DNA from: a virus | IMG/VR virus record: IMGVR_UViG_3300031608_000064 | Location: 1-20,756 of that record | Direction: 5' to 3' (one strand) | DNA: 20,756 bases | Part shown: positions 16,109 to 20,756 of the stretch, piece by piece | Position numbering within the stretch: the first letter of the stretch is position 1 | Layout of the letters: every line of letters begins with the position of its first letter | Notes under the pieces: model-generated | The model's database searches: none | What the model saw: only the letters and a program-made list of their open reading frames with translations | Told to the model about the DNA's origin: nothing | Made by a program: the position numbers and the translations under genes

Positions 16109-16355
16109 TACTTAATTTATATATTATCTCTACTTGTTCTAATAACTTCGTAAGAGAAGGGTTATCTTTTGATGCTTCAAGTATATCTCTATACATATGC
16201 CAACGTTCAAAGAAGGCTTTTTCTTCAAGCATCGCCGGGTTCTCATAGACTATTTTGCGTTCGGCTAAGTCTTGACCGAGACTTCTCATAGGCCTTGCGT
16301 ACACAGTATTGCCTCCGTCTGGTGATTCGTAGATTTTTCTTTCTTCATCTGTCAT
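16086..16355 (-). CDS. small protein of unknown function, coupled to VWA gene
   Basis: An 89-residue, charged and mostly helical protein (LAERKIVYENPAMLEEKAFF, SLTKLLEQVEIIYKLSNEER). The start overlaps the VWA stop in ATGA, and its end overlaps the next gene by 23 nt. Its tight coupling to the VWA/metallopeptidase gene suggests that it is a partner of the MoxR/VWA system. It has no motif of known function. Confidence 0.7.
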   Translation of the reverse strand: MTDEERKIYESPDGGNTVYARPMRSLGQDLAERKIVYENPAMLEEKAFFERWHMYRDILEASKDNPSLTKLLEQVEIIYKLSNEERRTN

Positions 16356-17641
16356 GCGGCTTTTTTATCTCTATGTTCTTCGTATAGAGCAAACGTTCCG
16401 AAAGGGGGATTCGGCTCAGGGTCACCATGAATGATCCATGTAGTGTCGCAGTAGTTTTCATCGCCCCAGCTACCAAAAGGATAACCATCTGTGAATACTA
16501 TCAGTCTGTTCGGTACACGCCCTTCGTTCTTAAGATGATCAAAGATACAATCAAAATCAGTACCACCGCCACCATAGATTTCGTATTCAGTGATATCATC
16601 TAAGTTATCACTATCGAATGTCTGAGGGTTATAGACTTGTGTATCAAAGCAATGAACATGAATCTTATAGTTAAGAAACATTTCCATTATGCCTTGAATC
16701 TCTGAAAGGAAAAAGGTTCCTTGTTCAGATCCGATCGATCCTGACATATCTAAAAAGATATCTACATCAATTAATTCGCCGGGAGTCATACCTGGCATGA
16801 TTGCATCCTGATGCCAACCCCTACGAGAAGGCTTCATAAATGAATAGTCATTATTCATTGTGCTAGTCAAGTTAGCCTGAATGATATCGTCCCAGGGCAT
16901 GACGGGTGCAGTCAAGTCTTTGATCATACGTTCAACACCTTTGGGTAGTGAACCTGCATCTGCTCCTGAAGCCGCATTGATGATTGCTTCTTTCATCTCC
17001 TGCTTGAGTGAATCTTTTTCTTCTTTAGACATCTTAACTGGGCCGGGCTTGTCGCCATCTTCTTCGCCATCAGCACCTACACTTCCATCGCCGTCCATGT
17101 GTTCGTCTAGCAATTGCTCTAAGAGTTGATCGACATCAATGATGTCTGCATTCTCATATAGAATGTCATAGACTTGCTCTGCGGACATTCTGTCATACTT
17201 ATAGTCATATAAGCAAGGGACAGTAGTGATAAATTCACCGATGTTGTGATTCTTTAAATCAGCATTGACACAATAGTCATCAGCAATGTTCCATAGTTGA
17301 GGGTCTCTTGTACCTCTACGATCCATGTGATCATACACTACATGTAATACTTCGTGGGCTACTAGAAACTCTACCTCTTTCTTACGTAACATCATAATGA
17401 AACGTGCATTGTAGTAGAAGTGCTTGCCATCAGTTGCCGCAGTCGGGCACCATTCGTCAGCATTGATAAGAGTTAGACGAGTAGCAAGATTGCCAAAGAA
17501 TGAATGTCTGAGTAAGAGTGCGATACGGGCAGTGATAAGACGTTCACGTGCTTGTGCATCTATAGCAGGGTCTGTAGGGCCGACTAGATGAGCAAGTTTG
17601 TTCTCTTTGTCGTTATTGGTTGTTGTTTTGTTCTTTGTCAT
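16352..17641 (-). CDS. VWA-domain protein with metallopeptidase-like N-terminus
   Basis: A 429-residue protein. The N-terminal half has a zinc-peptidase signature HEVLH (96-100, in VAHEVLHVVYDH) and a third-ligand candidate in NIADDYCVN (118-126). An acidic linker follows at 180-210. The C-terminal von Willebrand A domain has the MIDAS metal site DMSGS (D298, S300, S302) and FTDGYPFGSWG near the end. This is the VWA-like metallopeptidase architecture commonly paired with MoxR ATPases. The MoxR gene is immediately upstream, separated by a terminator and a strong sigma70-type promoter at 17670-17698. It may be a metal-dependent substrate adaptor or protease of the MoxR complex; peptidase activity is not shown. 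Confidence 0.92.
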   Translation of the reverse strand: MTKNKTTTNNDKENKLAHLVGPTDPAIDAQARERLITARIALLLRHSFFGNLATRLTLINADEWCPTAATDGKHFYYNARFIMMLRKKEVEFLVAHEVLHVVYDHMDRRGTRDPQLWNIADDYCVNADLKNHNIGEFITTVPCLYDYKYDRMSAEQVYDILYENADIIDVDQLLEQLLDEHMDGDGSVGADGEEDGDKPGPVKMSKEEKDSLKQEMKEAIINAASGADAGSLPKGVERMIKDLTAPVMPWDDIIQANLTSTMNNDYSFMKPSRRGWHQDAIMPGMTPGELIDVDIFLDMSGSIGSEQGTFFLSEIQGIMEMFLNYKIHVHCFDTQVYNPQTFDSDNLDDITEYEIYGGGGTDFDCIFDHLKNEGRVPNRLIVFTDGYPFGSWGDENYCDTTWIIHGDPEPNPPFGTFALYEEHRDKKAA

Positions 17642-17669
17642 GTGTCAGTTCTCTCAAAGTTATTTAACT

Positions 17670-17698
17670 ATTATACTACCATTTGGGAGACAAGTCAA
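17670..17698 (-). promoter_or_regulatory. sigma70-type promoter for VWA operon
   Basis: -35 TTGACT (17693-17698), 17-nt spacer with CCCAAATGG (one base longer variant of the shared CCCAAAGG block), -10 TATAAT (17670-17675). It lies directly after the MoxR terminator and about 30 nt upstream of the VWA ATG. Confidence 0.8.
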
Positions 17699-17709
17699 GT
17701 AAAAAGTTC

Positions 17710-17748
17710 GGAAAAGTGTAAGGAATGTCTCGGACCTTACACTCTTCC
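17710..17748 (-). terminator. rho-independent-like terminator after MoxR
   Basis: Long imperfect stem (about 13 bp, one mismatch; core CCTTACAC/GTGTAAGG) with an 11-nt loop. On the - strand it is followed by GAACTTTTTAC, giving a U-run. It separates MoxR from the promoter of the VWA operon. Confidence 0.7.
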
Positions 17749-17759
17749 AGGCCAGCAAT

Positions 17760-18860
17760 CTAGTTGCCCGCCTCAACAATGTACTTACCGTACTTCTTAT
17801 GAAACTCATCAAAGTTCTTTAACTGAGAAGGTTCGATCGGAAGTTTGTAAGTCTTAAGTGCAACTTTCGCACCCATCACAACTAACTCAGTTTCAAAGTT
17901 ATCCATGATGTAGCCAAAGAAGTTGTCGCACATTTCGTGGAACTGTTTGCTATCAACCTTATCAGTCTCAAGTGCATCTTTAAGTTCATAGCACATTGAG
18001 ATAGTCAAAGAATACATTGCAGAGATTTCTTTAACGTTAAGGTCTTTGACTTTACCTGACAAGATATCAGATGGGTTGGGCATTTTACTCGCAATTTTAC
18101 GATGCGCCATAAACTTAGTTGCAAGTCCTTCGCCGACTGTACCTGCTACGAGATTGTACAAAGTATCTGAATCGATGTCGGACTGTGTTAGCAACTGACT
18201 AACGAAAGTCCATGTACGAGGAGTAGCAAATGCTCTACTAGATGATTTTGCATCAAAGTCATACAAGTCTTGTTTAGCAAATGACAAGTAACCAACTACG
18301 TCTTCATGTACTTTGTTAACGACTGCCCAGTTCTGCCAAGAACCAAAGTCAGGACGCATTTCTAAGTGAATGAAACGATTAGCAAGGGGCATCGGCATAC
18401 GATATGTGACACCTTTGTCAGAGTCTCTGTTACCAGCGGCTACAATATGACAGTTCTTAGGAAGAATGTATTTGCCAACACGTCCATTAAGAACAAGTTG
18501 ATAACCTGCAGCCTGAACTGCTGGGGGAGCCGAGTTCATTTCATCTAAGAACAAGATAATCTTGTCATACATTGCGGCAAGTTCTTCAGAAGGAAGTTCG
18601 ATTGGGGGTGCCCAGTCCATAACTCCTAATTCTTTATTAAAGAAGGGGATACCTCTGATATCAGTAGGTTCCATTTGCGCCATACGCAGATCGATAACTA
18701 GACAGTTACCCATTTCTTCAGCGATTTGCTGAACGAGTTCAGACTTTCCTACGCCGGGAGGTCCCCACAAGAATGATGGACGACCTGCTAACATAGCCGC
18801 TTTTACTGCGGGTTTTGCTTGTTGACTAGTGACAGTCAAGTGTTCAGTTAATTGAGACAT
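17760..18860 (-). CDS. MoxR-family AAA+ ATPase
   Basis: A 366-residue AAA+ protein. Walker A is at 33-40 (GPPGVGKS), Walker B at 101-107 (IILFLDE) followed by MNSAPP (a MoxR/CbbQ-type feature), and sensor 1 is N144 in AAGNRDSDKG. NRF at 161-163 includes the arginine-finger candidate R162. MoxR proteins are ring ATPases that act with VWA proteins as chaperones for metal-cofactor insertion or complex assembly (RavA-ViaA, CbbQ-CbbO). Here the partner is the VWA gene at 16352-17641. GGAG stands 9 nt upstream of the ATG, and a strong sigma70 promoter (18899-18927) lies upstream, so it should be expressed early. The substrate is unknown. Confidence 0.95.
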   Translation of the reverse strand: MSQLTEHLTVTSQQAKPAVKAAMLAGRPSFLWGPPGVGKSELVQQIAEEMGNCLVIDLRMAQMEPTDIRGIPFFNKELGVMDWAPPIELPSEELAAMYDKIILFLDEMNSAPPAVQAAGYQLVLNGRVGKYILPKNCHIVAAGNRDSDKGVTYRMPMPLANRFIHLEMRPDFGSWQNWAVVNKVHEDVVGYLSFAKQDLYDFDAKSSSRAFATPRTWTFVSQLLTQSDIDSDTLYNLVAGTVGEGLATKFMAHRKIASKMPNPSDILSGKVKDLNVKEISAMYSLTISMCYELKDALETDKVDSKQFHEMCDNFFGYIMDNFETELVVMGAKVALKTYKLPIEPSQLKNFDEFHKKYGKYIVEAGN

Positions 18861-19288: not shown

Positions 19289-20587
19289 TTAATAGATACC
19301 TTTACCGAATTCAGTTTTACTATTAGTATTTTTCTTCTTGCCTGGTCTAAGAAGAGGGGGAATTCCAGCACGTGATATATCTCCGAGTCCCATTGCTTTT
19401 GCACCTTTCTTCATAGTGTCTGGATGTACGTCTACAGATAATGCCCTAGAGAATCTTGGGTCATTTCTTTCTGCTTCACTTGGAATGTATCCTGATGCTT
19501 CACTGACATTATACGTGTCACCCATTTTAGATATGTCATTAACATCTGATCCTTCACCATCATTAGTAGAACTTTTATTAAGTTTAGCAATTGCTCTCAT
19601 AAAAGTAATGAATTTGTCATAATATTCAATATCTTTTGCAATATTATTTACTGCTAATTTAGTTGCTTGGTCTCTACGCATTTGAGGTGTAGTTGCAGTT
19701 ACTTGAGGGTTGTTTTTCATTTCAACTTTGACACCCAAATCAATTGCTTTTGCTATTTCTCTAGTACTAACATTCCATTGACTTGCTAGTTCTTCTGTAC
19801 TAATGTCTTCTGCAAGATTTACTTTACTATTATATACACCAATTGATTCTTCAAATGTTCTACGCAACAATTCTTCTTCGATTGATAATTGTTTTGCTCT
19901 TAAATCATTACGCAAATCAAACAATGCTTGGAAGTATCCTTTTGATCTGACAGCCTTAAATGCTAAATTCTCAGGACCGAACTCTCCTTTATTATCTAAG
20001 CCGGCTTGTCTGTATCTTTTAATAATAGATAGTACATTTTTTACTTTTTCAATGTCTTTAGACTTTAAACCTTCGATGGCCAGTTGTTCTAATCTTTCAA
20101 ACTTGTGTTCTGCTGATATCTCATCTAAGTTTGCCCTTTTCTTAGTAGGGAAACGTGTGAACTTATCCTGATAGATACTATACTCACCTAAACTTGTATG
20201 TGATTGTGCTGTATCTTGTACATACAACTCTACAGGAATGTCTCTAATAGTAATTTTATATGTATCATTGTACAAAGACTTCTTAGCCATGAATAGTTCT
20301 TTGTAAACATCTGACTCTGGAAGTTCTGAAAAGTCTACAAGTAAATGTAAATCGATATCAGAATGAGGTGTGTAAGTAAATGCAACATTACTACCAGTAA
20401 TGATTACATCTTCTATAGCAAGATCAGGTAGACCCATATATTCAACAAAATCATCAGTAATGATTAATAATTGTTTTTTGATGTTTGGTTTCAATTTATT
20501 GTTTTCATCAAACAGCAAAGGATTCAACTCCTCATGGAAGTTGATTGCATCTTCTATTTTAAATTTTTCGAGTTCAAGTATGTTCAT
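19289..20587 (-). CDS. nucleotidyltransferase-fold phage protein
   Basis: A 432-residue protein. The N-terminal domain has the polymerase-beta-superfamily pattern: G65-S66 (TGSNVAF), D77-x-D79 (HSDIDLH) and a possible third acidic residue E119 in VELYV. The phage-typical context FHEELNPLLFD stands at about 17-27. Residues 150-250 are helical. The C-terminus carries SGYIPSEAERNDPRFSRALS followed by AGIPPLLRPGKK, a tail I recognise from similar phage proteins. Members of this fold transfer nucleotides to RNA, proteins or antibiotics; the substrate here is unknown. A late box GATAAATA lies 5 nt before the ATG with no Shine-Dalgarno sequence, so it is probably a leaderless late gene; a virion-associated role is possible. 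Confidence 0.85.
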   Translation of the reverse strand: MNILELEKFKIEDAINFHEELNPLLFDENNKLKPNIKKQLLIITDDFVEYMGLPDLAIEDVIITGSNVAFTYTPHSDIDLHLLVDFSELPESDVYKELFMAKKSLYNDTYKITIRDIPVELYVQDTAQSHTSLGEYSIYQDKFTRFPTKKRANLDEISAEHKFERLEQLAIEGLKSKDIEKVKNVLSIIKRYRQAGLDNKGEFGPENLAFKAVRSKGYFQALFDLRNDLRAKQLSIEEELLRRTFEESIGVYNSKVNLAEDISTEELASQWNVSTREIAKAIDLGVKVEMKNNPQVTATTPQMRRDQATKLAVNNIAKDIEYYDKFITFMRAIAKLNKSSTNDGEGSDVNDISKMGDTYNVSEASGYIPSEAERNDPRFSRALSVDVHPDTMKKGAKAMGLGDISRAGIPPLLRPGKKKNTNSKTEFGKGIY

Positions 20588-20592
20588 AGAAG

Positions 20593-20600
20593 TATTTATC
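20593..20600 (-). promoter_or_regulatory. T4-like late promoter box GATAAATA
   Basis: The box is separated from the ATG at 20587 by 5 nt (CTTCT). No Shine-Dalgarno sequence. In T4 the box spans about -13 to -6, which would put the A of the ATG at +1 (leaderless). Confidence 0.6.
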
Positions 20601-20609
20601 GAAATAGGC

Positions 20610-20631
20610 GAGGGGCAAATAAATGCCCCTC
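20610..20631 (-). terminator. hairpin after tmRNA, possible terminator
   Basis: Perfect 7-bp stem GAGGGGC/GCCCCTC with an 8-nt AT loop. It ends the tmRNA transcript region and precedes the late box of the nucleotidyltransferase. The 3' T-tract on the - strand is weak (GCCTATTTCG), so it could also be an RNA-processing or protective stem. Confidence 0.5.
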
Positions 20632-20639
20632 TGAGTGTT

Positions 20640-20756
20640 TGGTTACGAGGTACCTTAGACCTCGGGGGATTAGGCCGCTAGGGCGTAATCTTCCATTTCA
20701 TAATTGTTGTCAATTATAGTGTTTGCTTGATTTAAGGTCATCGCCTACCTCGTTGT
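20640..20756 (-). ncRNA. ssrA: tmRNA coding segment (permuted/two-piece type), 5' end outside window
   Basis: Read on the - strand, the sequence from 20726 to 20673 encodes ANTIIDNNYEMEDYALAA followed at once by TAA (20670-20672). This is the form of a tmRNA proteolysis tag: it starts with a resume codon GCA followed by AAC (as in E. coli), carries the terminal YALAA degron, then stop. An A-rich stretch (TTAAATCAA) precedes the resume codon, as after PK1. A 6-bp hairpin follows the stop (20646-20651 with 20659-20664, loop 7 nt). No T-arm or acceptor 3' end follows before the terminator-like hairpin, so the acceptor half must lie elsewhere. A permuted two-piece gene, as in alphaproteobacteria, would place it upstream of the window edge. 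Alternative: a 23-codon ORF from the ATG at 20741, unlikely to end in YALAA by chance. The end near 20640 is approximate. Confidence 0.72.

Follow-up and report, generated by a model that had tools for sequence, protein, structure and literature searches.

A 20,756-nt viral contig (the window, meaning the whole stretch of DNA analyzed here) very probably ends inside a working tmRNA gene that belongs to a T4-like phage and is circularly permuted, and it keeps the 3' (coding) half of that gene. tmRNA rescues stalled ribosomes and tags unfinished proteins for destruction. The coding half spans the last ~150 nt of the contig on the minus strand, from 20756 to ~20607, and is cut by the contig end. 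Half a gene in this position is sufficient to recognize a phage tmRNA, and the gene would add a clade of T4-like phages to those bringing their own ribosome-rescue RNA.

The coding half at the contig end

We compared the last 177 bases of the window with Rfam under E-value thresholds. This search returned a 5'-truncated match to RF01850 (beta_tmRNA; 40.3 bits, E 1.3e-11, model positions 183-331) and a 5'-truncated match to RF04321 (tmRNA_permuted; 37.4 bits, E 1.6e-6, positions 128-213). Each match carries a 5'-truncation flag and scores under the gathering threshold, and both are far beyond chance. Rfam reports nothing when the whole window is searched at gathering thresholds, because the gene is cut, and ARAGORN calls no tmRNA on the window alone because it requires the missing half. 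There is no T-arm or CCA region within the window, as the preliminary description had said. That description took the segment for the coding piece of a two-piece tmRNA, which is now supported by the truncated matches together with complete genes in six relatives (see below). It also named alphaproteobacteria and some cyanobacteria as bearers of this arrangement; the best clade-specific model is the betaproteobacterial one, beta being the only one of the alpha, beta, and cyano models reported as best.

Read along the minus strand from the contig end, the layout is ACAACGAGGTAGGCGATGACCTTAAATCAAGCAAACACTATAATT-GAC...GCGGCC-TAA, then a 6-bp hairpin, then a second, longer hairpin, and then the next gene. 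The features are as follows, with L001, L002, and L003 denoting viral relatives.

20752-20756, minus strand: coding-piece strand of the P2 helix (ACAAC); RF01850 and RF04321 alignments of L001-L003 show it paired with the GUUGU that opens the acceptor piece, and the window keeps this strand only.
20734-20751, minus strand: hairpin after P2 (GAGGU-aggcgaug-ACCUU), in which five pairs stay intact in 7/7 sequences and two of the five have changed in a compensatory way (CG/AU/GC; AU/GC).
20673-20711, minus strand: tag reading frame DNNYEMEDYALAA, with the resume codon GAC at 20711-20709 aligned to that of beta_tmRNA and UAAUU before it.
20670-20672, minus strand: tag stop codon UAA (TAA or TAG in 7/7 aligned sequences).
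20646-20664, minus strand: 6-bp hairpin after the tag (CGAGGU...ACCUCG; 20664-20659 with 20651-20646), with 97.6% of cells paired in 7 sequences.
20610-20631, minus strand: hairpin predicted to end the precursor on its 3' side (GAGGGGCA...UGCCCCUC); the RF01850 model includes it, with an alignment running to the model end, and in L001 and L002 the stem persists although bases in it have changed.

The open frame ending ...YALAA-TAA (stop at 20672-20670) and the 6-bp hairpin 3' of it had both been pointed out beforehand, and both are present. Across the two hairpins tested for covariation in seven related sequences, 98.7% of cells are paired and two pairs have changed on both sides, and none of 500 shuffles scores as high. 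This covariation, from seven related sequences, is supportive and not decisive alone; the 6-bp hairpin after the tag varies little and offers weak evidence of covariation. Scanning for promoters and terminators, we found no U-run terminator, the hairpin at 20610-20631 included, and one 10/12 sigma-70-like site, which overlaps the tag region.

Complete genes in viral relatives

The complete gene is present in six close viral relatives, of which L001, L002, and L003 come from an IMG/VR scan for the end of the tag and L022, L025, and L037 are among 38 stretches from a scan for the T-arm and acceptor plus spacer. ARAGORN calls a permuted tmRNA in 6/6, and the full-length matches to RF04321 (126-135 bits) and RF01850 (107-130 bits) in these relatives lie above the gathering thresholds. 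The acceptor piece sits directly upstream of the coding piece in all six. It opens with GUUGU, which pairs with ACAAC (window 20756-20752), and continues with the T-arm, CACCUCCACCA, the spacer, and GGGGGUG. CACCUCC pairs with GGGGGUG in the acceptor stem, giving G3-U70, a pair that is an alanine identity element, and CCA is encoded. The spacer between the acceptor and coding pieces is 13 nt in most relatives. The preliminary description had set as its test an acceptor piece with a T-arm and G-U pair, no more than about 300 nt upstream on the minus strand; in the six relatives it is found immediately upstream.

In the window's own genome the marks of the acceptor half, a T-arm and CACCTCCACCA, would lie beyond 20756. 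The contig of L003 (IMGVR_UViG_3300021378_000068) aligns in the same order along nearly all of the window, with DNA identity of about 74-89% in pieces and 89.5% over 19806-20756, through the tmRNA locus to the last base; beyond the cut it runs on into the acceptor half. In 5/6 relatives the terminase is 92-93% identical. Collinearity with L003 and this terminase identity therefore indicate that the gene in the window is the one that the relatives carry, truncated where the assembly stops; from the relatives we infer that its acceptor half is present and hence that the gene is complete in its own genome.

The complete genes also bear on whether the segment is a working gene. A host ssrA fragment left as an attachment-site remnant where an integrated prophage or island ends would fit a window that holds one half only and ends there, and tmRNA genes are common integration sites whose fragments lie at island ends (PMC4131195). 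However, in the six relatives the complete gene lies within phage contigs and is flanked left and right by phage genes, as in the 57-kb contig of L025, which encloses it, and on this ground we reject the remnant. The window tag, moreover, matches 0/15 of the bacterial tags recovered, no integrase was found among the proteins scanned, and the terminase is of T4 type, all of which makes a remnant very improbable.

Comparison with the relatives likewise defines the tag. Following the charged Ala, the window tag is DNNYEMEDYALAA, 13 residues long, with GAC at 20711-20709 identified as the resume codon by alignment to beta_tmRNA and to the complete relatives and by its UANNN-resume context. UAAUU precedes GAC in the window; UAAAU precedes GCA in most of the bacterial genes recovered. 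The resume context and degron (UAAUU-GAC...GCCCUAGCGGCCUAA, an ALAA-type hydrophobic ending) are conserved in the relatives. L001, L002, L003, and L022 share DNNYEMEDYALAA, the tag of L025 and L037 is GNDYTMEDYALAA, and the tag Leu codon varies synonymously (CTA/TTA) across the relatives. The preliminary description had started the tag at GCA (20726), counted 18 codons, and called it longer than usual. L025 and L037 differ by a 1-nt indel between GCAAA and TATAATT, through which both the GCA frame and the ATG-20741 frame run into TAA; the tag is therefore 13 codons. Ten residues is the most frequent tmRNA tag length (PMC11915505), so a tag of 13 is of ordinary length. The Asp resume codon and the tag are clade-specific details.

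The same two sequences decide the case of the ATG-to-stop frame that the window holds at 20741-20670. Read as a short protein ORF (MTLNQANTIIDNNYEMEDYALAA), it would be tag-like by resemblance only, and a conserved protein frame from this ATG had been named in advance as the alternative to a tmRNA. In L025 and L037, however, the frame meets TAA ahead of the conserved part, and the RNA structure on both sides is conserved and fits the Rfam tmRNA models. The in-frame stops refute the ORF, and we give this reading almost no credence.

Phage context and proposed function

The window encodes a T4-type terminase, a holin, and a baseplate connector, and also a MoxR-like ATPase, a VWA-like metallopeptidase, and sugar-modification genes. 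Identity of its terminase to those of the best-listed cultured phages reaches 48% at most. The MoxR-like AAA ATPase adjoins the VWA-like metallopeptidase (DUF2201) at window 16352-18860 on the minus strand; PHROGs labels the metallopeptidase an HNH endonuclease, which Pfam does not support. The downstream neighbor of the tmRNA is P0001.

19289-20587, minus strand: P0001, a conserved phage protein with a putative nucleotidyltransferase-like GS...DID motif (GSNVAFTYTPHSDIDLHLLVD); phrog_36119, E 5.5e-39.

A P0001 homologue adjoins the tmRNA in L001, L003, L022, L025, and L037, and homologues occur in cyanophages and Lak phages. We did not retain P0001 as a defined enzyme, since a Pfam search gave no match and its only PDB match, to a putative nucleotidyltransferase, is sub-threshold (E 0.75). 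Ahead of this gene, GATAAATA at window 20593-20600 (minus strand) resembles the T4 late promoter TATAAATA, and it is found in 6/6 relatives too.

Phage-borne two-piece tmRNAs are already known, and the window gene adds one more. The paper on the OM43 phage Melnitz counts 53 predicted two-piece tmRNAs, of which marine or aquatic phages account for 50 (PMC9004378). Melnitz ssrA resembles the window gene as a permuted tmRNA in a T4-like aquatic phage, but it is reported to have alphaproteobacterial affinity and to lie under a glutamine riboswitch (PMC9004378), whereas the best clade model for the window gene is beta and Rfam reports no such riboswitch in the relatives. With the permuted tmRNAs of RF04321 and RF01850, the gene shares the permuted order, T-arm, CCA, G3-U70 acceptor stem, P2, tag frame, and 3' hairpins; it differs from them in being phage-borne, in resuming at GAC (Asp) and not GCN, in a tag (DNNYEMEDYALAA) that is not of the ANDE..ALAA type, and in the 13-nt spacer of most relatives. 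The tmRNAs of mycobacteriophages (Bxz1, Wildcat) and Bacillus phage G are phage-encoded as well and have the standard, one-piece form, in contrast to the two-piece window gene. These mycobacteriophages, others, and phage G are listed as phages with ssrA (PMC4131195). Against cultured phages, the coding-piece DNA gave no match above noise, and for the complete gene of a relative only 12-25% of the query was covered; the sites matched, in phages of Stenotrophomonas and others, are tmRNAs or lack annotation. We found no near-identical bacterial tmRNA in 399 genomes of the order of G007, only short matches to the T-arm and stem.

The analysis shows the anatomy of the gene, its covarying structure, and its conserved tag. 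The gene most likely serves ordinary trans-translation with host SmpB, for ribosome recycling during infection. The intact gene would run from acceptor piece through a short spacer to coding piece. Host tRNA-processing enzymes would cut the precursor into two RNAs joined by the acceptor stem and P2, and the G3-U70 pair would direct alanine charging. The charged tmRNA would then associate with host SmpB and move into stalled ribosomes, where A-DNNYEMEDYALAA would be appended to the growing chain. This would release the ribosome and target the peptide to ClpXP-type proteolysis; tagged chains are predicted to carry ADNNYEMEDYALAA. With host mRNA being broken down and many ribosomes stalling during infection, the tmRNA would recycle ribosomes for phage translation. 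We found no SmpB gene in 24 tmRNA-bearing viral records, many of them fragments. With no phage SmpB in the contigs searched, function would therefore need host SmpB, the presumed partner.

The Melnitz authors put forward two roles, maintaining the hijacked translation machinery and degrading host proteins (PMC9004378). The second proposal, together with a tag that ends in the ClpXP-type ...ALAA, would suit a gene whose main benefit is tagging host (or phage) proteins for destruction, recycling amino acids or timing infection, and not rescue. However, tmRNA tags stalled chains only, so that picking out host proteins would take an additional step; phage ClpP, found in 17/29 tmRNA-bearing viral records that were chosen non-randomly, is missing from the window and from its close relatives, which are fragmentary. 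We consider it unlikely that tagging is the main benefit.

Long tags in viral permuted tmRNAs

We gathered viral loci by the motif GTAGGCGATGACNNTNAATCAAGC; the counts are of matches listed and are no census. Among these matches, tags of 21-35 residues occur in 34/119 readable related viral permuted tmRNAs vs 0/15 bacterial ones with the same motif (Fisher p 0.012, with loci treated as unrelated). The 15 bacterial-collection loci with the coding-piece motif belong to Alcaligenaceae plus one MAG labelled Alteromonadales, and all have 10-residue tags. Long tags are found at L067, L094, L104, L108, L119, L143, L153, L161, L167, and other loci, for example ANANTFDFSAMSFTGNTVRGAANESRFALAA and AKTSTGEVTVSGKNVKFSARSAQRQSLAV. 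The grouped long tags hold 40 synonymous vs 61 non-synonymous codon pairs, and the third position takes 70/140 changes, an excess; this codon pattern is weak evidence of constraint. Three long-tag peptides gave no significant match in cultured phages.

These tags suggest that phage tmRNA tags diversify well beyond bacterial ones, and the long viral tags may be more novel than the window tmRNA itself. Tag diversification makes it testable whether phages use tmRNA for rescue or for control of protein degradation. We put forward tentatively, as a possibility short of probable, that aquatic phages carry their own evolving permuted-tmRNA lineages, with phage-specific tags that are not host copies and that would change what becomes of stalled nascent chains in infected cells, sending them for example to phage-encoded ClpP. 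Such tags would comprise DNNYEMEDYALAA with its Asp resume codon in the window's clade and the 21-35-residue tags in others, the latter being putatively a strand-like extension (TFEYFQV..., STGEVTVSGK.VKFSAR..., FTGNTV...), in many cases with a classic ...ALAA degron after it. Any purpose assigned to phage-specific tags is speculation. A ClpP-family gene is sometimes within about 3 kb of the tmRNA, and the records with a ClpP-family protease are the following.

Viral records with a ClpP-family protease: G408, G410, G413, G416-G420, G422-G425, G427-G431.

Long tags of the STGEVTVSGK type end in LAV or FAV, not LAA (L060, L104, L108, L143, L148), a change at the last residue of the degron that could alter protease recognition. 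L046 (CALMJT010000228.1), an Alteromonadales MAG contig, has a phage-like permuted tmRNA with the tag ANDSTYALAA and is perhaps a phage contig binned with a bacterium.
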